Shown here in pieces: positions 16,201 to 64,000 of a DNA stretch of 64,000 bases (position 1 is its first letter; each line of letters starts with the position of its first letter). A program made the position numbers and the translations under genes. A model generated the notes under the pieces. That model made no database searches, was not told the DNA's origin, and worked only from the letters and a program-made list of their open reading frames with translations. This stretch comes from Branchiostoma floridae (Eukaryota; Chordata; Leptocardii; Amphioxiformes; Branchiostomatidae), in the NCBI RefSeq assembly GCF_000003815.2, contig NC_049980.1:24970660-25034659 (forward strand). The letters run 5' to 3'.

Positions 16201-17570
16201 GTGCCAGGGTATACTTTAGGTAGGGATGTGGAGAGCAGCATTCCCTTGGGAATGGTAAAAAAAATTCCCTAACAATACTTAATAGGACTAAAATATCAGC
16301 ATAAAGTTATCTTTCTACATGGCTCATTGCTCAAGTTCCTTTTCTATCATTCTTACTATTCATTACTTTAATACATTGCTGTTTAGTAGTACTCTATATA
16401 AGTTTTGATTCTTATCAGTGACCCCTCCCTCCCCTCAGCCATGTGGAATTGTGGTCAGAAGGTCTGAACAAGCCACCAAGACTTTGACTTCACTTTGACT
16501 CTTTCACAAGTGCTTCTTTGACATCTCTTTTTTTTCAGTCAGTAGCTTTTTCCAACTACAGAGGTATCTACACCTCTACTGTATAGTCCTTATTCTTATA
16601 TTTCACAGAAAATTGAATTGTTTATGGCCTGCTTTGTATGAATGAACCTGAACTAACTGGTGCAGCCATGCTGTACCTGCAGTTCCACAGGAGATGACAA
16701 ATTACACTCTGGTCGGTGGAAGTCATGAGTGCTGTCATCATGGCTTGGGAAAACTCTGCCAAAAGGATTCATTTGCCGGAACAGGCAGCTGTGTAAAGAC
16801 TTGAGACTACCAGAGATAATAGGGGATATTTAATCAATGGAGAAAGAACATATGAGGTCAGGGAAATTAAAGTTGATTTTTTAAAGAATAGGAGATAATG
16901 TCCCCTAGCAGCCACTTACAGAGCACATTTATCACACAAAGTGATGTTTTTGTCCTGGTCATAAATGACATCAATTTCTTAAATGTGATGAACGTATTAG
17001 ATGATGATTGGTTCTATCAATGTGTTGGTACAGCCATGCACATCTTTGTAGTGATGCTCACTGCTTATCACTGTGGAAGTAGACATGTAAACAATTCTGC
17101 ACTTTAAAAAAAAGTTGGAAAAAATAAACTAGAGCCATTCATCTGCTTGGAGATAAGGAGTTAAAGAAACAAACCATCCTACAAGTTAATACAAATACCT
17201 GCCATCTGCCCTTATGTTTCTTTCTTGTGTCCCCACATGGTCACAGTTGTATGGTTAAGTGTGGCATTTTGCTCAGCTGTATTGGTCAGACAACAGCAGG
17301 GTCATCTCAGTCCATATCACAGTTTTTTTCCAACACAGCTGCCAGGAGGGACAGGCAGCAGCACAAAAGATGTATTGTCTTGATTAGAAAACTTTTATTT
17401 ATCAACAAACACTAAAGACAAACTGAGAGAACTTTCTGCATACAGCATTGCACAAGTTTGTCAAATAAGGTATCTTCATCTTTATTTTTGATTTATTACA
17501 AATGGGCAAGGAAGGAAATTTGCAATTTCTATTTACGACTGCAATTTTTTTTTCTCTCTGCACTTTTGTG

Positions 17571-17686
17571 TAGCCTGGGTACCATCTGTATTCTACTAGG
17601 GCTCCTTACACTCGCTACCCTTAAAAGTATTTTTTATGGTAGCGAGTGTAAGGAGCCCCGGTAGAATACGGATGGTACCCAGGCTA
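17571..17686. mobile_element. 116-bp foldback MITE (TAGCC..GGCTA) with 8-bp target duplication
   Basis: The 49-base arms 17571-17619 and 17638-17686 pair with three mismatches around an 18-base loop. The ends read TAGCCTGGGTACCATC and its inverse. CTTTTGTG is duplicated exactly at 17563-17570 and 17687-17694. Eight-base duplications are typical of hAT-type elements. The whole unit would fold as a long hairpin RNA. Confidence 0.9.
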
Positions 17687-19705
17687 CTTTTGTGTCAATT
17701 TCCTCTTTAAGATTTACCAGAAGAGCGATTCTCCCTTGCCTTGTCAATAAAAACTAGGTAATTCTATGCTATTGAACAGAAAAATATAGCAAAACAGGGA
17801 GAATGGCTCTCCTGAAGATATTCACAGATTCACAATCAAGTATGACTGATTATTGATAGCAATCTATCCTACTAAATACTTCTAACAGTCATTTCACTGC
17901 TCAGTTGGTAATTATTTGATGAGCTGCATGAAAAACAGTGTTCTGGGATGTTTCCTGGCTGTAGGCACTTCATTATGGGGTAGCTGGGAAGATAAGAGAA
18001 GCGGTATCTAATAGATCAAAAGAAAGGAAACATACAAACTTGCAGGTCTAGACACATTTGGCATTGAACAGCTGCATTAAGATATCATTGGTTCAGCAAT
18101 GTTTATAGCAGCTGATTTCGGAGGCAGAAAAATGTCCCTACTTTGAAGTTGGGTAATTTGTAAGTGACTGAGTGCATATCTCTAACTTGGGTACCTGACT
18201 TTTTAGCTTTACTCCCCGCTCTCTCACTCGTTTTCTTATCCAAAAGTGAAGGAGAGAGCTGTGTAAAGCTAACAAAGCTGGCAAACAAGCTACCATATCA
18301 CAAGTACATAGCAGCTGTAGGATTTTGATTGTCTGAAACCAACTGTGATGGTGCTCATTCGTTGTTCTAGTTGGCTGTCTACAACCGGGTTGTATGTCTC
18401 TGTAACTCAGCAAACTGGCACTTGACTGGCACCTGATTAAGTATTCACCATTCTTTCATGTGTATTGAAAAACATTGTATGACATGAAATAAAAAGGTGT
18501 CATCAAGTCAGAAGCGTTTTTTATGATTCAAATCATATTTAGAACAATAAATGTTGCTATACTTGTCTATGATTTTTGGCAAACATATGCTGAAGCTTTT
18601 CAACACAATCATGTGATGCACAAAAGTTCAGATTTGAGAAGTTAAATCCTATCTGATGTTAAACTTATTGACTAGAAAATGAGTCTTGATAGCTTGTCGC
18701 TTTGATGAATGGCACCAAAGATTGAACTGGCTGTCTTTGACATTGAAATGCATTAATCCATCGACACACAAATTGTAGTGAATATAAGTCGAGACATTTC
18801 ACAATTATGCAGTGTTGCAGCCCACTCAGCATTTTCGAGGTGTCAGCTTTTGATTCTTTTCACACCAAGTCACTAGGCATCTAACAACCTTCATGCTGGT
18901 ATATGTTAGATCTATAACATTACTACATGTATTGGCTAGTTAGGCAGCCCTCATGCATCTGTATGTCTAACAAATGAATAAAGTGAATGTCATATACTTA
19001 CAATAAACTCTCATAATAATACCTGGGCTAGTAATCTAATGTAGGACGGCATTACAATGACAATGATCTTTCGAAAATGATCTTTATTTGCATGTTCTTG
19101 CCCATATGGGCTAAATGCAGTAGTTACATAAAATGTTTCTATAAAGAATCTTTACAGTGTCAGTGGGAATGATGTCATCAAAAAAAGGTCTTAAAAACCT
19201 GGATATCTGAACTGTGCATACCTGGGGTTTCTCACTAATATTTCATTAGTGGAAGTTTTCTTTTTAATGTGGTAAATTAGGTGTCACTGTGTTGAAAGTC
19301 ATTTGCCTTTGGGCCTAGCATTCGAAGTTCTTAAACTCACTGCCTTAATGGACTGAGAATGCTGCTCAGTTGGGATGATGACGGCCCGCAGGATTGGGGC
19401 CTAAGCTGCTGATCCCTTAGTTACAGCTGTAAAGCTCCATGTGGTAGGTAACATTTGGGCTATTAGTGTCTACAAGAACTTACAAGATGCATCACAGTTG
19501 GTACAAGAATGAACCATCCAATGAAGAAGAGAGGACTGGAAAGTGAAATGAAAGTAAAATGTGGATAAAAGATGGGTGGACAGACAGATACTAAAGGAAA
19601 ATGCACAAAATAGTTATAAAGATGGAAAGACAATAACTTCATGAAAAAGACTTAAAACTGATACCATACAAAGAGTGGGAGTAGGGAGTATAACCAGGAA
19701 TGAAT

Positions 19706-19768: not shown

Positions 19769-22700
19769 AAGTAACTGATAGTGACAAGTGATGGAGGATT
19801 TTGTTATGAGCAGATGAAGTACAGTTGCACGCATGCTAAAATAATGTTGCACTACCGAACATTACAAACCTTCCCAAGGCAATAATTCAACTCACATTTC
19901 TTCTTAGCTTGAGAGAAATCACAGACGTACATGAGGACCTTTGTAGATCGGGGTTATGAGTGTTCGTTTGACACTGTTTTGCATTTATCCAGCTATTTAC
20001 CCAGTCTGGGAACAGAGGAAAGCCCTGCACTTCCAGGTACAGCCCAGTTTCCCCTCAAGTGTCTCTCTTAATTTACTCAAGCAATGACAGCTGCTATGAG
20101 TTGGTTCTGACATTGAAACTGATGGACTGTCACGGTGGGAGGGCTGGAGTGGGAGGGTCAGGAGGTTTGTTTGTGGCAGATAGAAACTGATGATATACTA
20201 TTGTACAGTGTCAAGGGGAAGGGTTCCAGTGCCATTACCCCATGATATTCTTTTATATGAAGACAAAGATGAGAAGGGATTCTGTTTCCTCTATACAGCA
20301 TTCTATAAACATGTGCAAGTGACCACCCTGGTCTACCTGGCCAATGTGACCACTTTTTTGTGGTCCCTTTATAGACTCTACATCATTTTTCCTATTGACA
20401 CAAGCATTTCAATAGTGACCACTTGTCCCAAGAGACCAGATTAATTTTATCAAGTTGTCTTCTTGGGCAGTTTTGACTGGGGTGCATTGAAGTCACTTTA
20501 CTTTGACACAGTCTTCTTCTTCTTCGTGTCATCACTGCACTTGACACAGTAACATGTATTGACTACAAGGATAATTAATACAAAGGTAACAAGGGTATTG
20601 ATAAGGACGGTAATAAACAGATCAAATTTCACCATAGTGTAATAGTGCCTTCATTACTCTGAACATGAGTCAATTTTCCCCTCCCATCTTGACCTTGCCA
20701 TGCATGAAAGGGAGGGTAGATGTTTACTGGAAGCTGGCAGTACCCCCATCAGTCCACTGGACAGGTCACACCTGTTCATGGGAGCAGCAGGTCACTAATG
20801 TCTGCCCCTCCTCCCTAGCCAGTCTGGAGCCAGGCTAATGCTAAACACAACAGCCAGGCTCAAACTTTAAGTATGACTCAAGGAGATGAACTTGAAAGCA
20901 TTTGGAAGGACACAGGAAGTGGCAATGTTTTGTAAGTGGAGCACCGCTGGCTACCCGGGCTAGTCTACACCTGCTAGAGAGTTCAGCAGGAAGTTAACCA
21001 CTGCCCCGCCCCTCCAGCCAGCCTGGAGCCAGCCTAATACTAAAACAACAGTGATACCAAGAAGGCTGGAAGTTTTCAGTAGGAAGGGATCACCCCATTC
21101 ATACATACAGGGGGTTGCTTTCACCTCTGTCAAGAAATTTTGTTTCATATCATCTCAGATATACAGATTTTCTTGGCACACGGCATGGCTTTTGTTTGCT
21201 GGAGGTTTTACAGCACTTGATTATGGGACTGGCATTTTGCAGCGAATATTTTGGCCAAAGCTATCACTGGTATGTTCTGAGGAAAAGAATGGGGACACCT
21301 CCCCAGATCTGCGTGTCTATTTAGAGATGGGCTAAACAAGTGTCCTGATCAGAAAAATGCACACCTGTGTTATTGTCTCAGGAAGTAGCTTGGGGAGCCT
21401 CAGACTGACTGGCTCCAGTGTAAATGCTAGCACAACAAAGTGCTTAGAACTTAAAGGATGATTTAAGAAGGGTAGGAAGGAAGGCTAAATGCAGCTGTAG
21501 AGAGGACACCACCTAATTTTACTTGACAAGTTGTGGACAAAAAAAAGGAAAGTTTACCATGTGTTGTACTGTCTGTCTATGCAGATCATTCCAAAGTCAC
21601 CACCCAAATGCCATAAATGTAGATTATTAGCCTCAATCCATAGCACTTGCTGATTAATTTTTCATTTGATTTGTCATTATGTACGTATACGTCTGTCCAA
21701 TTGAATTGCTATTTTCAAAGGGTCAGTTTCAGACAATGTTAAAAAGCTATAACTTAATGAGAAAACTGTATGTATACAAGATGCAAGATTAAAAATTAAT
21801 GTTATATGTTGACTATGGGGGCATGGGTGACCATTTTCATCGAATAGCAACTTTGGCAATTCCTGGAAGTCACTCCTGTTAATGTTAAGGTCTTCCTATC
21901 AAAAAGATTGTCCACTTTGAGATAATCATGATTGGAGACACTCAAGATCCCTTTAAGTTCAAGGCTTTATTTGCAAAACCATGAAGTTTTGTCCCTGTCT
22001 CAAGTTCCTTGTGACTAGGCCTTATGGAGCCAAGTTGGCACCACTGTAATGCTAAGAATAACATATTATGTAGGGACTTCGGTGAAACACTTTCAGATGA
22101 AGATGTTTTACAGACTCACCTCTTTCAGAGAGGGGGTATCAAACAAGCTCCACCTCCTGGTCAGAGTAAGACCTGCCATCATCACCCAGGGCAAACCATT
22201 GAGATGGAGGGGTGGCATGACAAGGACTCAGTTTTGATGAACATATCATAGAGGCAAAGGGTTTATGTCATTGATTACACTATAGACAATCTGGATTTTG
22301 ATTGAATATATTATTCATCAGATGCAGATTAACATTATTATTTGTGCTGTTGTTAAAAGCTAATGTAAAGTTTTTCTTTACAAATAGTAATGGTATTAGA
22401 ATCAGATGACATTTTGGACATGATATGTTTTTTTAATACATGTACTAAGTATCTAGTGAGGTGTGTAAAAATTTGCTGGCTTGTGCGTGACCCGGAAACA
22501 GTCTGGCATTCAGGCCACATTGGTCTGGACAACAACTTGTGGGATGGTGCACATGAAAATGTCTTTCCCCAGGACAGAGGTCTTGATATCTCCCCAGTGA
22601 AGCATAAATATACAGCATTTCAGCCCCCATCTGGAGAAAGTGGATGTTCCCATCTGTTGTCTAGACATGAAGGCAAGAAGGCACTGTTGGTGAGATGCTC

Positions 22701-29099: not shown

Positions 29100-29174
29100 T
29101 AGCCTGGATCCCAGACCCCAGCCCGATCTCAATAGATATTTTTGAGATCAGGCTGGGGTCTGGTATTCAGGCTA
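29100..29174. mobile_element. 75-bp foldback MITE nested in the end of another
   Basis: The 32-base arms 29100-29131 and 29143-29174 pair with three mismatches, with ends TAGCCTG..CAGGCTA. The exact 8-bp duplication TGTAGCCT lies at 29092-29099 and 29175-29182. The duplicated target itself contains the first six bases of the neighbouring element, so this copy inserted into an older family member. Confidence 0.88.
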
Positions 29175-36595: not shown

Positions 36596-38225
36596 CTGTG
36601 GAAATGTCCTTGCCATAGTTGGAAGGAAAATGTTTAAGATATTCAGGCAAGGAGAGGTTTTTGTTGCCAGTGCAAGCACAGGTTCAGAACCTTCTGCAAA
36701 CTACAATACATCAGAGGCCTCTGAGCCTATTTCATTTTTGTATATTCTTTTTACATTATCATGATTAGAAAACTTAATAATGAATTATAGATGAAGATTG
36801 CAAGGTGCAGTCATTGGAAAGATGTGCAGTACAGATAACAAAAATTATTTGATACTGAGAATTGTGTTGCTGGTCTGAAGTAAGAACTCAAGTCATCAGT
36901 ACGATAATCAATGTTCTTCAATGAACACCATTGTTGTTTCAAAACAATTAGACGTAAATATTTGATGCACACGATCCAGAGAGATATCTTGTAATTCTCT
37001 GTCAACAGCAGGTCGGAAAAATTGTGGTTGATCGCCAGGTCAATGGATGTCATCTTTACCCTTGACTGGGAGAGAAAGTGAGGCAGCTGTCCCATGCTAT
37101 CCCTGTCCCGTCTCTCGCGGAATCTCGCTTGACCATCCCTGCAATTAACGATCTTTACCCCGCCTTTGATGCCGGAGTGAAGACCACAGATGAGCGCGGT
37201 CGCCAACAGGTATTTTTAGGCCCCGGACGATGCACCAAATTTTCAGGGATAATTTAATATCGTGCAGTTGTGCTGCCCCTTTCTGCACCACACAAATAAG
37301 GCCCACACACTTGGTACTATCAGTACTACCCTGGATAAGCTGAATAAATCACATAGCTCTGCCTAATTCTGGCAAAGGGCATTGAACATTTTTCCCCCAA
37401 ACAATATCAAAAGTTGCCCAGAAGAAGCACAATGCTACCTAGTGGTATGTATGAAAGGTGAAGTGCATCTATGGGAGAGTGTATCAATAGATACTGCAGC
37501 AGGGAGTCCTGCACATCTCCCATTTGTCCAATTGGAATTCAAATATTTGGGTAGGCATTTTGCGGCACATGTGCAAGACCAAAAACATATCTCCCCATCC
37601 ATCCAGCTATAATTAGGGAGAACACATGTTGTCTTGCTATGGGTGGCTCAACACTGATGACTGATGTCCAAGCTCATGTTTGGGACAGGTGGGAAGTGCC
37701 GAGTTATTTTCATCCCTGCAAAGCAGCTACACTTTGGTGGAAAACACACACATTTCTTCAGGTTTAAAGTCTTAGCTGCTAACATGAGAGAGTGGGGAGG
37801 ATAGGTGGTTATGAAAGGTCGTGATAGGGTATGGGAGGAATGTCAATATTGATGTGAGATGGGGATCCCCGGGGTCCGCATGGGGCTGCTGCTATACTGC
37901 GTAATGTCCAGAACGGGCTAAGTAGCAAACACTAAAACAACACTTTGTTCAAACGAAAGATCAGCCCCTAAAAACTTAAACAATCTTGCAAGTGACAGTC
38001 CCTCATTGTAGAAGGCTATTGAAAAGAATTCCTTAATTGTCAAGTTTAAACCCCATGTGAATCCCCATTTCTGCCACCCCTCAACATGAATGACATAACT
38101 GTGGCATCTCTCCTTACACTCATGTCTGAGTGATGCCACAACAAGGTCTCTTTCCCCTCCAGCAGAGCAATTGATAGGAAGACCTTCACATTGAAGAGCC
38201 TCCAATATAATAATAATAATCACCA

Positions 38226-38289
38226 GGTGTATTTTGCCAGCCAGTAGGTACCCAAATTATGAGTAATGAGGCTGATTAACGTGGTCGAG
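38226..38289. repeat. Dispersed repeat copy shared with 50056-50119
   Basis: The 64 bases starting GGTGTATTTTGCCA and ending ACGTGGTCGAG match the 50-kb element with about three substitutions. Here the AAGCAGA ends are absent, so the inner segment is a repeat in its own right. Confidence 0.8.
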
Positions 38290-42283: not shown

Positions 42284-45200
42284 CTGAGACAGAAAAGAAC
42301 TGTCGGTTAAAACATGTTTTTGTTTTTTCAAACTGATACGCGCTGGTAGGGTTAGCTCAGGAGAAAGTATACCGTAACAGTATTGAAGAAATACCCATTT
42401 TGTTAGAAAAAAAATTACAACAAAGGTTGCAAATTATTAGGTTACATTTAAATTTCAATAGTTTTATAAACAAATCAATTCATACGATAGATGCCATTAT
42501 GAAACACTCGATGAAGGAGAACTTGCAAGGCAGTGCACAAGCACCATCTAGCATTTCACTGCAAAAGTGCAGCTAATCTGACTCACCCAGACATCTGCAC
42601 TAGCTCCCCCTTCACAAGTGCCACAAACAGTGGTGCCCCCACACAGGCAGGCACCAGGTACAGCAGGGCAGGCTGTGGAAGATGAGCCAAAACATCAGAA
42701 AACGCTGCTCAAAATGTACTTCTTAGCAGAAAAACGATGGGTAGAGTGAAGAGAGAGGGTGATAATGGCTGGCCCCAAATATGTATGACCAAAATTCATG
42801 GAAGATGTCAAAGACATGAACATTATGGTCTTAGGTATGGTGTCTCATTTGAATACTGAGAGGCTAAAATAATCATGCTACTGTCTGATAGTAAGTCCTG
42901 TTAATCATCAATGCAAGCATGTGATAATCTTATGTTAGGTAAAGTTAAGCTTACTTTGTTTAACAAGCAATCGGCAACCGTGTTTTACTGAGCATTTGTT
43001 TGGCTGTATATCAAAAAGCTAATATTTGATAAAACTTAAATCAAAATTGAGGGAACTATGCTTTGTTTTAATCTCGAAACTCCAGCGCCCTCAAACAAAC
43101 CATTGAGTTGCTCAAGCTGACAAGGAGAGACCAGTGCTGTTGCCAATCTCACCTGTGCATGCTTGAAGACGTGCATGATGAATATTGTGACCAGCAGGCC
43201 AACGAAGTAGGCGATGAAACTGCAGTAGAAATACAGCTTGCTGTCCTTCTTCAGGCTGTGGGGAGGGCACATGGATGTAAGTGGAGGAGGTTACTGCTAA
43301 ACTGGTTGGTGCCGCCTTATTTCAAAACCTTTTTTTTTAAACTAAAATATTTCAGAATGTGAATTAGAGTTTGTTACTTTGTGGTGTTAAAAAGTATTCT
43401 TATAACACACTACAAAAATTAAAGGATGCGAATTAGAATTTGTTACTTTTTGATGCCTAAAAGTATCATTGTGACATACTATACAAAAACTGTGAAATTA
43501 CAACTTGTTGTCTTCTGCAATCACCAATTTTATTCCGCAAAATGCAGTTTGCACAACAAACAAACATGTATCAGGGACACCCAAAGTGTGACAATTTCCC
43601 TTTCTGCACTCACCTGACATCAAAACGGAGTAGCAAAGCTATAAATATGCCTGCAACAAAGAGATAGACAATTCAGCATGACATATCAACAATACATATC
43701 TTGGAATAACTTCACAAGTACAGTATCAAAATATATGTATTAATAGAATACAACTGTAATTTTTTTTCCAGTAATAATTCTCATCTGCTACTTTCAGAAG
43801 TGTCCAAGTTAGTGGTCTGAGGTTACCTCTGGGTTTCCAGCTGACCCTGCGCATGAAAAGCAGCATCCTTACCAATCACACCGCACAGGGACATTACTAA
43901 ATTACCACATGTGCACACACACACACCCCTTCCTCCACTATCCTGGAATGACAATATCCCCCACCCCCGTGTACACTAAAACACACCCAGTAACTTTCTA
44001 GCGAGGACAGGTCAACGACAATTACTACGGTGTGAATAGCCCGAATGAGTGGCGGGCCATTGTCACCCTGTCTATCATGTAAATGTCATAAACACACACC
44101 AAGCAGGCACTGTGCGGAAGTTCACACAAACAATTGATCTATATAACCTCCTTCTTCTATTTATAACGGTTAAAAAGTTAACGTGGACCTGTTTTTACGA
44201 TGACCAAAAGGTGAAGAGACTAAAGAAATCTTACGACTTCAGAAGTTTTTGAAATGATAGACCCGCAACAATTTTTGTCTCGTATTATCACGCGCTCCGT
44301 CAGTTTAGTTGTATTAGCACACCTATACACATCGTAATGTATCTTGGCGTAGTGGATTAACGATTAGACTTTTTAACTAATGATCTCGGGTTCGAATCCA
44401 AGTTGGTGTACTTTCTTTTTTTTCGATGATATTTCACTATTTATCACTTATACGATCGTTCATATTGAAATTTTGATTTCATAAGGGTTTGCTTCTTGTG
44501 TTCATTTCATACTAACCTTCTTGATACTATCTATTTGCACTATTACAGTGTGTATTTATTGACATATATTGGAGTGATATATGGTAGTTTATTGTTGAAA
44601 CATTACAGATCTGGCGGTATGGTTTACAAACATGTATTCGCAACTCGTCTGAGAAAAGGAAACAAATGAAAGAGAGACCTTGCAGACAATCCTAGTTAAA
44701 TGGGCACAATATACAGTCTTCATACATACCTTGTAGCGGTATTTCGAAAATTGAACGCAAAAGAATCATGGTACGCAGTTCTAACTCAGTACAAGTAAGA
44801 ATGTGACTTTATTGCATTAGGAAATATAACGTTTGACTCCAAATAACTAGCAAACTATTGAAAGAAAAGGGTCGACGAAAAATCGCTAATCAACAGACAA
44901 TTGGCGTGAACTATTCATCCCTGTCCCTCGCGTGCCACTAGACCAATACGTGGTAATTGGGTACTTTGCATGTGAAGGGATCGTGTCCTCGCTAGAAATC
45001 TACTGGTTGTGTTTTAGTAACGAGCCCCCACCCCCCCTAGTTCTACTCTACCCTACCCTACCCACTCATACCCCTTTCTCCACTGACCTGGAATGACGAT
45101 ATCTCCCAGCCCCAGCATGGCAAAGTTGTTGGCCTCCAGCCCTTTCTCCAGGATGTCCTGTGGGAACACCACTGCAGGGAAGGGAACAGAAATGATCTGT

Positions 45201-48200
45201 CAGTAAGCAGGTGTGCCAAGTCTCCATGTAGCTGGTAAAACAATTCTGTTCTACAGTTATTGTATATAACAAAGGGTAGTTAAAGTGGTCAAGAAATTCA
45301 TAAAAGAAAAGCGCACTGTAGTATTGCGGTTTGTCGGAAAGTGTGAACTCTGGGTGATGGAACAACAATGAACTGCCAAGTCTCTAGGTAAAGTTAAACC
45401 GACATGCTTTTATCTTCTGGAACACTCCCAAACTGATGTAGGCACATGCTACAAAAAAAAAACAACTCCCAATCTTTTAAAAGTCATGTCTAATCATAAG
45501 AGACAAACCCTGCCCAAACATGTATAGCATACCAGATGAGCTGATCTGGTTGGACAGCAGGTTTTCTCAGACAGTTTTACTTTTACTTACACTTGATTGG
45601 TGCCTCAAAGGACTTGGCTACTGACACCATGACGTTAGTGCCGAAGACCTGGGACGAACCAAACACCTGTATGAGACAAACATGCGCAACATAAGTGAGC
45701 AGAAAATGAAGCAAAACAACACGAACACCAACAGTTCTGATCATCATCATATCTTATCGCTCCATCTCTGTATCCAGCAGCAGGCTGCCTCTTCTGATGA
45801 TTAGAGGCTACATAGAATTACACGCATTGCAGATACTTATTGTATCCAAAAATGTCATATGCATGACAAACTGCAGTAGATGAGCAAATTGAGACAATTA
45901 TCAACAAGGCAAATTGATGGTCTCCAAAGCTAGTTACCACAATGTCCATGGCTATCACTACTGCTCATTTATGATATGGAAGATGTGTCACAGGCTGACA
46001 GTCAGGTACAACCTTGTCCCAAACAATAATCTATCTACATATGTTTAACAGGATTGATTGATCTGAAACAGAGAAACATTTTACCAAAGCTTTACAAACT
46101 ACCACCGACAAAACGTCTGCATAGCTTGTTCCTGATATTCCTCAGACTTACCCAGAATATGTCATAAATGAAGAGTCCCCCCAACAATATGCACCCCATG
46201 GTGACTTACCCAGAAAATGTCATAAATGAAGAGTCCCCCCCAACAATATGCACCCCGTGGTGACTTACCCAGAATATGTCATAAATGAAGAGTCACCCCA
46301 ACAATATGCACCCAGTGGTGACTTACCCAGAATATGTCATAAATGAAGAGTCCCCCCAACAACATGCACCCCGTGGTGACTTACCCAGAATATGACATAA
46401 ATGAAGAGTCCCCCCAACAATATGCACTCCATGATGACTTACCCAGAATATGTCATAAATGAAGAGTCCCCCCAACAATATGCACCCATGGTGACTTTAA
46501 CCAGAATATGTCATAAATGAAGAGTCCCCCCAACAATATGCACCAATGGTGACTTACCCAGAATATGTCATAAATGAAGAGTCCTCCCAACAATATGCAC
46601 TCCATGGTGACTTACCCAGAATATGTCATAAATGAAGAGTCCCCCCAACAATATGCACCCAGTGGTGACGCTGTTCAGCTGCAGTAGCTCGACACCGTTC
46701 AGGGCAAACGCCAGCCCAAACAGGTTATTGGCCACCCAGTGCTGCAAGCAACAGGAAAACAAAAATCAACAAACAAAACCCTTAAAATCAAATCCACTTT
46801 TTTCACTCACACAATCACTCCATTAACTTTGCCATGGCATATTTAAGGGGTCCTTTTTTCTTCACATGTAATTTGTTGCCAATTATCACATTTAAGTATA
46901 TCTATACACAAGCCGTGACAATAGTATAAAACTATCTTTTGTCAGATTTTAGCATGGCAACTAATCCTTCAAAGGAAAAAGTATATATATTCAGAGTCAA
47001 TGCTGAAGTTATGTCTTAGACCCACTCAATTAATGTAAAATAACCAATTCAGTAGAAAGGTTATCAAAACCAGTTTTCCATGTACTGACCTTCTTCATGA
47101 GATACCAGACTCCAATGGCTGTACAGATGCCCAGACACACCAGGTCCTTACGGTCAAAGTGGTAGTCCATCAATTCTACAGAGATAATAAATTGCACATT
47201 GGTTAAATAGCACACAACAGTATAGTGTACAAGTTTCAAATTACCTACAAATAAATGTAAATCCAAACGTTAACAATAGAGAACATGGGTAGTGAGAAGT
47301 TATCTAAGGCTAGATAAACCTTTACCTTCCTCCTTGTCTGGCTTCCCCTGAGCAAACTTCAGGTGGTAGTCTTGGTTGGGGAAGGAGGCAGGAATCAGGG
47401 CATTTACCACTGGGCTGTACAGAAATAAAAATGCACTTCATACAGGGTAGTAAAGAGTTAACACAACCTACCACTAATCACCTTCTATGACTAGTGATTT
47501 TCTTTGGCATACAGTAGAAATTTCTTTTTTGTTCACCTATCAACAATATCAAACAAAACTCACATTATTCTTACACATATAAACTATAACAGTAATTATG
47601 GTAATCCAATTAAGAACCAAGACGTACCTTAAGATGTGTGCAAGTGCCAAGACTCCCAGGAAGAAGAAGTAGAAGGCAAGGAGCAGGTTGATGTACTCCT
47701 TGGAAAAGATCTGGAACATATCACAAGAAACAGGCAATATAAATTGTAATGAAGAGAAGGAGGCCACAGCACTCAATTTAGGAACAGCTCACAGTGCTGT
47801 TGGTAATCTGTCTTTCTCTAGTTCCAAGCATATGCTGTATACTTTGCTATCTTACACTGTGTTACACATTGGCCACGAGCTTATTGGGCCTACTCCTCAA
47901 CGACCTGACCAGCAGAGGGGCTGCTAGAAGCTAGATTTAGTCAAGCTACTTTCCTGCTGCATCTTTCATCTGTAATATTTATGGAAATATTGTAACCTCT
48001 CAAATTTTGTGAATGCATGTCATCTTACCTGGAAGAACATGTAGAGCCCAAAGAGGGTACAGCTGGCAATGATGGGGAACATGGCAGCATCCTTACTGGT
48101 CATGGTCTCCCCCTTCTCCCCAGACTCCTGTAATAACAGAAACAGACAGGACTCTCACCAGATGATTATTATTATAAAATACACATGAAAGACAATCTAG

Positions 48201-50003: not shown

Positions 50004-50216
50004 AATCTTCAAGCAGATGTAAACGGGTTCTTTAAACCATTAATATATATCATCTGGTGTATTTTGCCAACCAGTAGGTACCCAAAGTATGAGTAATGAG
50101 GCTGTTTAACGTGGTCGAGGTACCTCCTCGAGCACGGGACCCAGAACACTGAGTAGTTAGTGTAGCAAAAACAGCGATGATGAGTCAGATCATATGCTTA
50201 CATCTGCTTGGAGATT
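50004..50216. mobile_element. 213-bp AAGCAGATGTAA-ended element containing a dispersed repeat
   Basis: The ends AATCTTCAAGCAGATGTAA (50004-50022) and TTACATCTGCTTGGAGATT (50198-50216) are near-perfect inverse copies. Inside, 50056-50119 matches 38226-38289 at about 61 of 64 positions. Further inside is a CGTGGTCGAGG..CTCCTCGAGCACG hairpin. Confidence 0.75.
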
Positions 50217-57660: not shown

Positions 57661-57784
57661 CAAAACCGCGCAGTCTGCAGAAATCACTGCCGAGTAGTGC
57701 GTGTTGTTTGGTAGTGGTACTTGAACTCACACTGCTGGGCAAAAAATCACGCAAGTCAGGTCTGTGAAGACATCAGGACAGAAG

Positions 57785-58025
57785 ATGAACCCGACCCTAG
57801 GTGTGATGTCCAACGCGCTGCGGAGGATACCGGACCCGCAGCAGGACAGCCAGCCCTACAAGTGGCTCGAGAAGACGAAGTCGGACGGGGCCTCCGGGCG
57901 GACCCGGCGGGAGCAGAGGATCCGCCGCCCGATGAACGCTTTTATGGTGTGGGCCCGCACCGAGAGGAAGCGATTGGCCCACGAAAAGCCTGACCTGCAC
58001 AACGCCGAACTCAGCAAGATCCTTG
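57785..58025 (+). CDS. SoxF: SoxF exon 1: N-terminus and first part of HMG box
   Basis: Codes residues 1-80 plus the first base of Gly81. It starts [10 protein letters not shown]; the box begins near Arg45 with [20 protein letters not shown] and continues to SKIL. The donor is CTTG followed by GTAAGT, phase 1. An intron inside the box at this Gly is a known SoxF-class position. Confidence 0.94.
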
Positions 58026-61000
58026 GTAAGTCTCCAACTTTCTGTGCTAACGATCTTTTTTTCAAACAGTAAACCGCCATGCCACTTTTAATAGATTTAT
58101 ACAACTGAGGTTTTATCATGATTTATACTCGACGTCCTGCAATGTTGGTAGGACATGCCGGTTCTTACAACCGGAAAAGACTTAATTTGACATGAACGAA
58201 GTGATGTTGTATTTAGCACTGATCTAACATCTGTGAAGCTATGCTGTTAAAATTAGAAATCTTTGTAGAAGTTTCTTTTACCGCAAACACGTTAGTGCAT
58301 GAGGTCTGCGTCCCGCTGATATTGTGCACCCAGGGAAGCCATTTATTGCGATTGATAGCTTCACCCCGCCAAGCCTGTTACGGGTCAGTAATTAAGATGA
58401 TATCGTAAAGGTGTATGCCTGTACGGGCAGATACCCAACCCAGGGGTCACCCGTGGGTCATTCCCCCTGTAAAGTTTGGACGATTTACCGACAGGTTTGG
58501 TGAGCAAACTTTGCACAGTCTATTCCGTAACAACCTGTTGAGCGGAAAGCCTAAGATAAAATTAATCCCCTCGTCAACCCCACATGCACGCCTTCAAGTC
58601 CCGCAGTACGGCGTTTCTTCAGCTAAACCCAGTCTGGAGTAGACACATGTCTGCATCAGTATTGCATGGTTTAGTAGGACAGAAATCTAACGTGTGATTT
58701 ACGATTTATCATATGTCAATCGCGAATCCACAAAACAGTATCAGGATAAGCATGTTCGTTTCCAAAGGTCACTTTTTCATCACAGTTCGTCGATAATTTG
58801 TCGGACGACCGTGCTCGTGATGTGGTCGATTTCTTTAGTATGATTTAAGGTATCATGGCTTTTATTTCATGTTCCTACAGATTGGTTGATTACGTTACAT
58901 ATTCAAGAGTGCATGACCCCAGTGTGTACATTTGTGATCAACCTGTGCAAACTTGATTTGTGAACACGTCTTTACATGACCAACAAGCCATTATGTTTTC
59001 TGTGTATAACATAGATGCTCATCAATCGTCTTGATTCTCGATAAACCCCTTGGTTGAAACCTTTCTTCTTCAGTGCCCCCCCCCCCCCCCCAAAAAAGAA
59101 AGAAGTCGGAAGGAGGTTATAAAACTGTAGAAGATTCAAGTGTTTAATGATGTTGTTATGCTGCATTACTAGCTAACGTATGCAACATTCATGGCCCTCT
59201 GGATTGGTCTCGGCAAAAGGGAAACACATAAATATTTTCTTTGCTTAGTATTGTCTCCTTTCCCATTCAAAAAAGTATTCATCTGTAGAATCGCATAAGG
59301 ATTGTGGTGCTGCATGTGTCTGAAATAAGCGCAGTTGGCCTTTTACCTGTTAGCACACCGTGCAACAGTTGTCCTTGGGCCCGTACCGAGGTCACGGGAA
59401 TGGTTGGCGGGATGGGGAGTCGGCAAGGTGCCGTCCAGCACCATGCACCTGTTAACTTTACTAACGTTACATGATTCTCGGAGAAAATACTAGTACTGTA
59501 CTACACACGAATGGGACATTTTATAGACTAAACGTTACCAAATCATAACAGTTTTATTCAGTCAGGTGACATGAAATGAAGAGAAATGGACAGTTCGGTT
59601 TATTTTGTCCTACAAAACAGCTCGTGCCAAGATTCTGTTTTTACCCGCATGATGCCTGATGGCACGCACATATCTGGCTGACTGCCAGGAAGTCAATCTT
59701 ACTAAACACGCCAAACATTGAAACAAGCCGCTAACATGTTGTTTTTCTCTTGTTTGACAACAGGGACGTCTCAAGTAAGTCCAATGTTTTAAAAAATGAC
59801 GGTTCGGTCATGATAGGAATGCCAGATTTAATCTAACGTTTTAAAATGTATTTTGCATTAAAGTGACTATCGTCATACATGTACCAAACGTGTGGCCACC
59901 ACTTAGGCAGGTCGGGCACTTCTATACTATACTATTCACACTTTACCAAGAAGAATCGTGACTACCACAGTACCAGTTGATCACAAAAAAAGTCGGTAAA
60001 AGTCAAAAGGACCAAGTTTTGTCAAGGTCAGTGTTGTCCAAATGCAGCAGAGAGGTGGGTTCGAATCAGAGGCTAGGTTGTGTCATCGCGCGCACGCGAG
60101 GATCGGGACATGAACTTTGTATGTAAACTTGTCAGGTCGTGTAGGAAGGGGTCACTAAGGGGTTACAAGATAACAGGGTCCACCTGATACCAGATGATGA
60201 GCTACTTTATGAGGGTATTAAAGGGAGAAAATGTTTTTAAATGTTGTTTTTCCAAAAACATGTAATTGGGTCTCGTCAGGTTCAACGACTTTTCAAAATA
60301 ATTAACATTTCATGAAAAATCTACTATTACGTTTGGTTGCCTTGCAGTACCCGCGTTCCTACGCTTGACTTGAGAAAGAAACTTTGTCCCCAACCCCATG
60401 CGTATTCTCTGTCCCGGGGGTCGACTGTCGGTCAAGTTTCTGGCGAGGTCACGCCGATTCTAGTTTGCATACGAAGATGGACAAATGATAAGCACGCAAA
60501 AAGTCACCATAAGTTCATCGTTCCCCAAGCGTAACTCCATCCATGGTCCTCTTCTGGAGTCGTACCCGGTTTCAGAAAATCTACGTTATAACTTATGTAA
60601 GAATCGAAACGTTGAAATCCTTTCTATCTCAGAGCCATCGGTGCGTGAAAAGGAACATGATGTTTGATAAAAACGGTGTGATGAAACGAAAACGTCTGTA
60701 CGAAAACGTGCGGGTCAAAACTAACAGAAAACCTACCTACCTTTCCCATGGCGGGAATCTATGCGTGCAAGAGTCTAACATAGCTCTAGGAGCCCCCACA
60801 CAAAACATGTAGATTTATCCCCATCCTTTTAAATTAATTCTCATTACATGGTTTACAGCAACAAAAGGGTTAATCTCCCGGGGCTTATCGTTAATTAATC
60901 CTGGTTGACTCCGCCTTTTGTTTACCCATTGCACCCAGGCAAGGCTGGTCATGAAATCAATCATCCCTGTCGTAATCTCGCCCCACGGTCTGTCATGGCG

Positions 61001-64000
61001 GGCGGCAACTGCGTCACAAACTGTTACGTCCTTAGAACCACTCAGAAATATCTCAATATAACTCCTTAGCTAGTTTTCTCTCTCTTTCCTTCTGTGTGTG
61101 TCAAGGCTGGGTTTATCAGTCACAGACACTTAGTATTTCATCCACGACGCTCCTGTATACCACCCCTGTGTTGTTTTGGTTTCTCCTTATTTAATCTATG
61201 ACTGGCCCTGGTCTCTGTGCGACGAGACTAGGGGGCCGTCGTCTACTATCAAGGGAGATAACATCTGCGTGGGAAACTTAATTACGTGGAGAACCCAGCC
61301 TTTTGGCCTTCCCCATGAGTAAAACTATATAGAAATATGGGTTTATTATGTTTTAGACTCTTCGCCGAGCAGAAAGATCCACCTTGCGTCATATTTGGCT
61401 CGGCGCCATTTGTTTGCAGTGTGCCCTGGAAAGGCGACGGAGTCATCTATATTGATCAGGAATAAGCAAACACGCTCTGTAATCAAATATAACAAATAAG
61501 TCACAGCGCTCAGGTGGAAAATAAATAAATACGTCGGCAAAGTTACACAAATTGATACGCAGCACCGATCACAACAGGAAACGGCTGACTGACGTGTTAT
61601 CTCAACTTCCTGACCAAATCTAAGATTTGATAGAGAGAAAGGGACATTGTAAGAAAGGCGAAATGAGAACATGGGAAAAAACGAAGTAGAAAGAAAGAAA
61701 GTTAAGATACAGAAAGTTATCGCTGACCATGAACATTTCATTGTTTTTCTGCAGGTAAAACGTGGCGCAGTCTGACGACGTCACAGAAACAGCCGTTCGT
61801 TGAAGAGGCAGAACGGATCAGAGTTCAGCATATGCAGGTAAAGGTTTTCTTCACTCACGCACTCACTCACGCACTCACTCACTCACTCACTCACTCTCTC
61901 ACTCACTCACTCACTCACTCACGCACTTACTCACTCAGACTCTTGTTCACTCACTCAATCAAACAACATTTTCTCACTCACCTTCACTAACGCTCACATT
62001 CATTCTTTCATTCATTCATTCAATCAATCACTCACAAAGTCGATCAATTTTCAACCTCCTTGATTTGACCAAGGACATATAACGTCCTTGATTTTACTTT
62101 AATGATTTTGTCATGCACGGCAAATCAAGGGCAGACGATCTTGAACCATTCCGCTGTCTAATATTGCCGACATGATTATATGGGTCACAGACTCACAGTG
62201 CAGTGTTTAACCATGTCAGTTGATATCCATAAAACTGTTGCGGAAGCAGACAAGTTGGTTCCTACGTTGTAAATCTGAACGGTTTCCTGTACATATAAAC
62301 GGCGCCACGGCTGCCCACCCAGAGCTGGTACTGTCATGATTTACTCTCCCTGACTGTCGAACACTCTACTTTACACCCGCAGGACCATCCCGACTACAAG
62401 TACAGGCCGCGCAGGCGCAAACAGGCCAAACGTGTGTGCAAAAGAGTCGACACGGGACTGACCCTGTCTGGGCTTGCGCACAAGTTCGGACTGTCTCCAC
62501 CCCCCTCCTCATCGTCATCGTCCAGTGGACCGACGACACAGAGTAAGTAAATACTTCATCAGTTCTGACATAGTTCATAAGGTTTCATACTGTATGAAAC
62601 CTTATGAACTATGTCAGAGCTGATTACTTTTGTACATGTGTCCAAGTCCAAGATGATATAGCGCATCTAGCCTTCGCGATCGGCTTCGGAGACTTCTTGG
62701 AGCCCGGGCATTTATAGTGTGGGGGAGCGCTGATTCGCGATTTTAAACATAGGCTAGACAAGTCTTCTCTGCCTTCTCTTGTACCGGGGGATATTGTTTG
62801 CCACCAGGCGGTCTCTTCAGAATTAAACACTTGAAGACACAAACACTGAAGGAATCTAGGTTATTGGTGTATCCAATGATTTTTTTTCATATCGTCTGAT
62901 GTATATTTCACCTACATGATTATTTTTTTTTTAAATGCAACATATACTAGTATCCTAAGACTTATTTTGTCTTTCTGTCCTAAACAGGTAGCCTGGGCAC
63001 CCCAGATTCCACCCCCACTAACAGCCCCACCCCAGATGCGGTGAGCGTCAAGTCCGAGCCCGCCTCCATGGACTCCCCGCCCCGAGTGGAGTCAGCCTCG
63101 CCCCTGCAGAACCTGGCCAAGCTCACCTCCAACACCACACGCTTCCCAGCCGGTACGGAGTTATAAACATTTTACGCCAATAACATGTTAAATATGCATA
63201 TATAACTAATGTGACGCGTAATGAACCAATCCGTAAAAGTCATCTTGCAATGTTATTGAACTGCTATGGTCACCGGAATGAGAGAAATAGTAACTCCTGA
63301 TAGATCTATATCATCATCATCATCGTCATCATCACAGTCCTTTTCGTCGCTATTTTTACTGCCGAGACAGATCTATATACTAGTCTATTTGTTGTTTGGT
63401 CGCGCACTTTATGCCTAGAGATGGTCCATATTGCGAACTCCTTATGTATTGAAACAAAGCCTGAAGAATCCTCTCTAGTATCAACAGTCTTTAAAGCAAT
63501 GAACATTAGCCTCCAATAACTAAACCATCCATCTATTACAGATAAGAGGCTCCTGTCTAACGACTGCCTTCCCGGCGGGCTGCCGACCCCGGAGATGTCC
63601 CCTCTCGACGCGCGGGACGACGACGTGTTCTTCCCGCCGGACTTCAAGTGGGACGTGGGTCGCGTGGGCAGGGAGGCGACCATGAGACCTGCGGACCGCC
63701 CGTCCAGCAGTGGAAACCTGCCGCCCACCACCCTGACGCTGCCAAAGCCTGGTAAAGTTCAACGCAGCCTGTCTGTTGCCGAGCAGACAGCCGCCAATGC
63801 CGGCAGGTGTCAGACCCCAACGCGTGCACGCAGCTCTTCCACCGGAGACTTCCCCGCCACATCCACGGTAGCATCCTCAATGTCCTCGGGCATCGCCACC
63901 CAGTCCGCCGTCAGACAGCCTCCTCAGTACCGTAGCGAGCTCCACGCGCTGGTCAGCAGCCCTTATCCCGTCTCTATGTGGTACAGCAACGGTGGAGACT
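57785..64000 (+). CDS. SoxF: SoxF-group HMG-box transcription factor (Sox7/17/18 orthologue), 3' end beyond window
   Basis: A nuclear DNA-binding regulator of the SoxF class, whose vertebrate members act in endoderm, vascular and lymphatic development. Visible exons: 57785-58025, 61755-61837, 62383-62542, 62988-63152 and 63542-64000 (open at the window edge). Phases join without a break into 369 codons so far. The HMG box covers about residues 45-123, with [35 protein letters not shown] and [10 protein letters not shown]. These words, and [11 protein letters not shown] at 229-239, are diagnostic of SoxF. The start is the ATG at 57785 (GAAG before ATG, A at -3). The in-frame GTG upstream at 57764 is not a normal initiator. 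The HMG box is cut by two introns, after SKIL-G and after VQHMQ. A Ser-rich stretch and SVKSEP follow the box. The C-terminal beta-catenin-binding motif known in SoxF proteins should lie downstream and cannot be seen. Confidence 0.95.
59076..59091. repeat. C16 homopolymer in SoxF intron 1
   Basis: Sixteen consecutive C followed by an A run. Its length is uncertain in most read types. Confidence 0.95.
60851..60925 (+). promoter_or_regulatory. Candidate enhancer cluster in SoxF intron 1
   Basis: Within 75 bases there are AACAAAAGGG (60860-60869) and its near-inverse CCTTTTGTTTAC (60914-60925), both HMG-box type (SOX/TCF-like). There is also a FOX site TGTTTAC (60919-60925), the homeodomain palindrome TTAATTAA (60891-60898), an Otx-type TAATCC (60896-60901) and a GATA-type TTATC. 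It is AT-rich among GC-richer flanks. The enhancer call is a motif-based inference. Confidence 0.3.
61755..61837 (+). CDS. SoxF: SoxF exon 2: middle of HMG box
   Basis: An 83-base exon completing Gly81 and coding residues 82-108: [17 protein letters not shown] then [10 protein letters not shown]. Acceptor TTTCTGCAG, donor CAG followed by GTAAAG, phase 0. An ACTC-repeat tract begins about 13 bases into the next intron. Confidence 0.94.
61851..61936. repeat. ACTC/CACT microsatellite in SoxF intron 2
   Basis: Imperfect tetranucleotide repeats of ACTC with CG and CTCT interruptions begin just after the exon 2 donor and trail into CATT and AATC repeats to about 62030. Confidence 0.9.
62383..62542 (+). 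CDS. SoxF: SoxF exon 3: end of HMG box, nuclear-localisation basic region, Ser run
   Basis: Codes residues 109-161 plus one base of Ser162. [20 protein letters not shown] completes the box and supplies the C-terminal basic cluster. [14 protein letters not shown] and a seven-Ser run follow. Acceptor CACCCGCAG; donor CAGA followed by GTAAGT. A 27-bp perfect hairpin starts 22 bases after the exon. Confidence 0.92.
62564..62618. repeat. 27-bp perfect inverted repeat in SoxF intron 3
   Basis: The arms 62564-62590 and 62592-62618 are exact inverse complements around a single base at 62591. Weaker pairing continues outward on both sides to about 62558 and 62624. It begins 22 bases after the exon 3 splice donor. 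Confidence 0.95.
62668..62756. mobile_element. TAGCCT..AGGCTA-ended short element in SoxF intron 3
   Basis: It begins TAGCCT (62668) and ends AGGCTA (62756), the terminal hexamers of the hairpin MITEs at 17.6 and 29.1 kb. Its inner TTCGCGATTTT word also occurs at 33.95 kb beside another TAGCCT..AGGCTA hairpin. No target duplication was found. Confidence 0.45.
62988..63152 (+). CDS. SoxF: SoxF exon 4
   Basis: Completes Ser162, codes residues 163-216, then the first base of Asp217: [16 protein letters not shown], then [16 protein letters not shown]. It is rich in Pro, Ser and Thr, consistent with a flexible regulatory segment. Acceptor CCTAAACAG, donor GCCG followed by GTACGG, phase 1. Confidence 0.88.
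63542..64000 (+). CDS. SoxF: SoxF exon 5, truncated by the window edge
   Basis: Completes Asp217 and stays open for 152 further codons to the last base. It carries [11 protein letters not shown], a SoxF-specific motif, then an acidic/aromatic [13 protein letters not shown] patch and a Ser/Thr-rich tail. CCTG/GTAAAG near 63752 resembles a donor, but the frame stays open through it, so I treat the exon as continuous. The last codons read MWYSNGGD. Confidence 0.92.

Follow-up and report, generated by a model that had tools for sequence, protein, structure and literature searches.

We analysed a 64-kb window (the whole stretch of DNA considered here) from the lancelet Branchiostoma floridae and rebuilt within it a gene for signal peptide peptidase on the minus strand. 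The coding region, reconstructed with AG/GT boundaries, forms a single open frame of 381 amino acids across 12 exons (Table 1). Its translation matches the Pfam family Peptidase_A22B (PF04258) with an E-value of 7.6e-96, and among sequences of solved structures there is one distinct match, to the SPPL2A chain 9k92_A (signal peptide peptidase-like 2A, 2.2e-18). The translation contains YD, GLGD and QPALLYLVP, and we take YD, GLGD and PAL to be the signal peptide peptidase motifs known by these names. As judged from the profile match and these motifs, the host gene is a signal peptide peptidase of the A22B type, in agreement with the original prediction; by way of the human protein, we take it to be HM13 and not an SPPL gene. 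The terminal codons of exon 6 encode FIYDIFW, and thus the YD motif, and the exon is followed by an intron of 967 nt. At the 3' end of this intron two CAG sites lie 18 nt apart (45649..45667). Splicing to the upstream site would insert six residues in frame (VFGSSQ) directly behind the exon with the YD motif, for a protein of 387 amino acids. A duplicated acceptor was also considered at this end of the intron, but we propose no more than a possible alternative acceptor.

Elsewhere in the window, an HMG-box exon on the plus strand (57725..58069) matches PF00505 with an E-value of 1.9e-10; it was the only match among five open frames given to Pfam, drawn from 299 frames of at least 60 amino acids. 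This exon resembles a Sox gene and, like the intron-rich SPP gene, would suit an animal source. A 79-bp direct repeat flanks HM13 (38211..38289 and 50041..50119, 90% identical), and a local direct repeat is found at 20802..20853 and 21001..21051 (85% over 52 bp). Three imperfect palindromes, located at 17570..17687 (118 bp, 90%), 29100..29174 (75 bp, 87%) and 62558..62624 (67 bp, 96%), are perhaps foldback elements. Across the 64 kb, there were no Rfam matches at gathering thresholds and none from ARAGORN run with the bacterial code.

Table 1. Features of HM13 and of the repeats at its exon-intron boundaries (positions within the window)
Feature	Position	Strand	Basis
HM13 / signal peptide peptidase coding region, 12 exons, 381 aa	42199..49711	-	Rebuilt gene model; profile and structure-sequence matches
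HM13 exon 6, 126 nt, encodes YD motif	46616..46741	-	Gene model, intact 381-aa frame, AG/GT boundaries
HM13 intron 6, 967 nt, first part consists of repeat copies	45649..46615	-	
Unit 1: true exon 6 end plus GTAA; authentic donor, first intron base 46615	46612..46669	-	
Unit 2: donor intact at 46557; carries first premature stop on read-through	46554..46611	-	
Unit 3: donor broken, GGTTAAAGT	46496..46553	-	
Unit 4: donor intact at 46442	46439..46495	-	
Unit 5: donor intact at 46384	46381..46438	-	
Unit 6: donor intact at 46326	46323..46380	-	
Unit 7: donor intact at 46268	46265..46322	-	
Unit 8: donor intact at 46209	46206..46264	-	
Unit 9: donor intact at 46151, then unique intron sequence GTCTGAGG	46148..46205	-	
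Exon 8 donor boundary (end of GLGD-motif exon and intron start), source of second boundary duplication	45060..45113	-	83% identity over 54 bp to intron 8 copy
Decayed exon 8 donor-boundary copy in intron 8, donor lost (GGATAG for GGTCAG)	43915..43968	-	

The boundary between exon 6 and intron 6 is repeated in tandem. Tandem Repeats Finder places a repeat of period 58 at 46145..46669, with 9.1 copies, 93% matches and a score of 906. Cut at each GTC, the array resolves on the minus strand into nine units, from 46669 to 46148, of 58, 58, 58, 57, 58, 58, 58, 59 and 58 bp, whose mean pairwise identity is 93.6%. Each unit, cut in this way, consists of 54 exon and 4 intron bases and so spans the exon 6 donor boundary; unit 1 is the genuine exon end, and units 2 to 9 all lie within intron 6. 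The duplicated stretch is bounded on either side by GTC, which makes the phase of the unit ambiguous (51+7 or 54+4) and lets every joint rebuild the donor GTAAGTC, save where it is mutated in unit 3. The original prediction had described the unit as 51 exon bases, including the YD codons, plus 7 intron bases with the donor; this is the same 58-mer. It had also placed the ancestral intron past the last unit only, and both GTAAGTCTGAGG and the unique intron sequence GTCTGAGG are indeed found after unit 9 alone. The further suggestion of a microhomology-primed origin at the shared GTC holds in part. The sequence fits a segment flanked by two GTC sites having been duplicated in tandem, but this is weakly diagnostic: at least 3 bp are common to both ends in 6.8% of sampled 58-bp segments of the window, and the terminal GTC therefore mildly favours microhomology, as weak evidence.

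We compared the donors of the nine units and their consequences for the reading frame. Eight of them are intact and share the 8-mer GGGTAAGT, whereas unit 3 reads GGTTAAAGT, so that the nine near-identical donors originally proposed come down to nine units with eight intact donors. The 8-mer occurs eight times in the 64-kb window, both strands together, and all eight occurrences lie in the array; the shorter GTAAGT is found at 41 sites on both strands, 8 of them within the array. Among the eight intact donors only donor 1 keeps the frame in our gene model, giving the 381-residue protein, as had been predicted. The remaining seven lead to an identical premature stop after the tail VSHHGVHIVGRTLHL, and not after the VSHHGVHIVGR given before; retention of intron 6 yields the same stop. 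Use of the later donors would extend exon 6 from its normal 126 nt to 184, 299, 357, 415, 473, 532 or 590 nt, and the new exon 6-7 junction would lie 13 to 419 nt downstream of the premature stop. RNA structure was also considered as a feature that could single out donor 1, but it decides nothing, since two accessibility measures from predicted local RNA folding disagree: of the eight intact donors, donor 1 is the least likely to present a fully unpaired 9-mer (0.0027 vs 0.0058-0.0216) and ranks second in mean single-base openness (0.575, range 0.408-0.641).

Divergence among the nine units is unevenly distributed. Thirteen of 60 alignment columns vary, and columns 8-11 (4 of the 60) account for 66 of 138 pairwise differences. 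This hotspot corresponds to a CACTGGG/CACGGGG/CATGGGG stretch, for which the CpG and the G run present in some units are a plausible cause. Outside the hotspot we counted by hand nine changes in units 2 to 9, two of which fall in the ten donor columns, against an expectation of 1.6. This low-powered test, in which even zero changes would have given P = 0.17, shows no visible excess of conservation in the extra donors over the remainder of the unit. All nine units are distinct, the smallest pairwise difference being 1.

Self-comparison of the window detected a second boundary duplication in HM13, in which the donor boundary of exon 8 has a copy in intron 8 (Table 1). The presence of this second, decayed copy suggests that boundary duplications recur. 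The segment between the two copies has 35-bp inverted ends (45018..44984 and 44009..43975) that are 91% identical. Bounded by these ends, the stretch 43975..45018 (~1.04 kb) in intron 8 has the appearance of an inserted element, and no clear target-site duplication was seen for it by eye. When 54-bp stretches were compared at E up to 1e-3, a same-strand copy elsewhere in HM13 was found for 2 of 11 donors (those of exons 6 and 8) and for 0 of 11 acceptors, a comparison that was made after the repeats had been seen and is descriptive only. Random 54-mers of HM13 have such a copy in 146 of 1500 cases; outside the array zone the count is 42 of 1388, of which 25 belong to the duplication at exon 8 and 17 to a repeat within intron 9. 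Self-comparison also shows a local direct repeat in intron 9, at 43341..43418 and 43409..43489 (77% over 81 bp). Exons 6 and 8, both with copied donors, also both carry catalytic motifs; with two cases, we treat this as coincidence.

Repeats of this kind have been described in lancelets. The sections of PMC3087553 drawn on here report that intron-exon boundaries of amphioxus globin genes, 5' as well as 3', carry minisatellite-like duplications, and give "mirages" as the name of such repeats found earlier in the Adh3 genes of B. floridae and B. lanceolatum. Unit lengths are 10-72 bp in Adh3, and 150-160 and 157 bp in the globins; the BflGb6 mirage differs between two haplotypes (6 and 3 units), the Adh3 mirage is somatically unstable, and one globin mirage was seemingly misassembled in the draft genome (PMC3087553, same sections). 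That text also mentions similar structures at other amphioxus loci, with reference to papers on microsomal retinol dehydrogenase and on an amphioxus presenilin gene. It takes Adh3 data and globin RT-PCR to suggest that regular splicing is undisturbed, and notes that splice signals retained in the repeats could act as cryptic sites. In the corresponding parts of PMC3902484, lancelet PGBD5 contains 60-bp and 108-bp repeats that overlap splice sites; two versions of the locus differ in their copy numbers, which are 2 or 7 and 3 or 6. Mirages in Adh and troponin C (TnC) are cited there as being without aberrant mRNAs. Annotators had called most of two PGBD5 repeats exon, with neither EST nor mRNA support, and the authors dropped this exon; normal splicing of PGBD5 itself is their own inference (PMC3902484, same parts).

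As far as these excerpts go, the HM13 array is like the mirages of Adh3, BflGb6, BflGb9, troponin C and PGBD5 in that tandem units span a boundary and many of them keep the splice signal, here GTAAGT in eight of nine units. Its unit length falls within the Adh3 range and close to the 60-bp repeat of PGBD5, and its nine units compare with 6 and 3 in BflGb6 and with 2 or 7 and 3 or 6 in PGBD5 (PMC3087553, PMC3902484, in part). HM13/SPP would be a new gene for this class. A boundary array in HM13 is unreported in the titles and abstract openings that we searched on mirages, amphioxus minisatellites, intron gain, duplicated splice sites and Branchiostoma signal peptide peptidase, a scope outside which most subscription papers lie; a search on competing identical 5' splice sites returned no match. 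The model of Rogers, as cited in the sections of PMC3087553 at hand, holds that introns are gained when AG/GT proto-splice sites are duplicated in tandem. Both cases involve a splice signal copied within a gene, but the HM13 array copies donors, and no acceptor copy, new intron or exon is evident.

It is very probable that the array is a near-neutral mirage minisatellite in HM13, with the first donor used always or nearly always. Its origin would be a tandem duplication of a short segment straddling the junction of exon 6 and intron 6, after which the copies would have expanded and changed in number through slippage or unequal exchange. Being intronic, they would be removed together with the intron once the splicing machinery has chosen donor 1, and the array, probably harmless, may differ in length from one haplotype to another. 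Occasional splicing from a later donor would introduce a premature stop, and the resulting mRNA would presumably be degraded. The mirage reading is supported by the boundary-spanning unit with GTC at both ends, by unique intron sequence only after the last unit, by the intact 381-residue SPP frame from donor 1 and by extra donors that are not spared mutation; the lancelet precedents argue for it as well (PMC3087553 and PMC3902484, in the parts cited), as does the decayed copy in intron 8, which is expected if duplications recur and decay. We infer the use of donor 1 from the intact frame and from the mirages of other genes. Against this, the predicted RNA accessibility of donor 1 is mixed, retained splice signals could by analogy be cryptic sites (PMC3087553), and an exon was once called in the PGBD5 repeats (PMC3902484); our confidence is tempered because normal splicing in the precedents, as far as those texts were available, is partly inference.

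The original prediction saw in the array a donor decoy or poison-splicing switch, by which regulated use of later donors would give frameshifted, degraded transcripts and thus lower SPP output. Seven extra intact donors sharing one 8-mer, the same early stop from all seven and several exon junctions downstream of that stop would suit such a device, and a premature stop upon later donor use is what poison-exon or unproductive-splicing regulation would produce. However, any unit whose length is not a multiple of three can be expected to cause a premature stop, the donor of unit 3 is dead, and the extra donors, unlike elements of poison-exon regulation, are without visible conservation, the donor columns not being depleted of mutations (2 of 9, with the low power stated above). 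Lancelet mirages are moreover reported, in the parts of PMC3087553 and PMC3902484 cited, as not disturbing regular splicing. We thus find the switch unsupported and consider it very unlikely. U1-binding donors can also protect an intron from premature polyadenylation. The extra donors might in this manner shield intron 6, or they might strengthen the definition of exon 6, and the absence of GGGTAAGT elsewhere in the window, together with the concentration of 8 of the 41 GTAAGT sites in the array, would agree with a helping role. According to the part of PMC8724738 consulted, the 5' splice site that closes an exon can have a stimulating effect on the 3' splice site preceding it. The true donor, however, judged by eye, already matches the consensus strongly, and the additional ones are not specially conserved in our low-power test, which leaves a helper function extremely unlikely.

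The repeat count, or even the whole array, could have been made by the assembly, as the apparently misassembled globin mirage (PMC3087553, in part) and the differing PGBD5 counts in two locus versions (PMC3902484, in part) illustrate. One would expect a false repeat that arose out of a single unit to consist of identical copies, whereas the nine units all differ; the count may still be wrong, but we regard an artefact as highly improbable. It also appears quite unlikely that the array is a copy-number-variable regulator, whose several U1 docking sites beside the catalytic exon would tune the amount of productive SPP mRNA, and that the duplications at the donors of exons 6 and 8 reflect a donor-specific process tied to transcription or splicing.

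As a near-neutral mirage, the HM13 array would be a nine-unit addition to a class of lancelet repeats that is peculiar and has been little followed. It represents a natural test of how the spliceosome chooses one donor among eight that have the same 8-mer. Boundary duplications in HM13 fall on donors and not on acceptors (2 of 11 against 0 of 11), and whether this pattern is valid genome-wide is testable.
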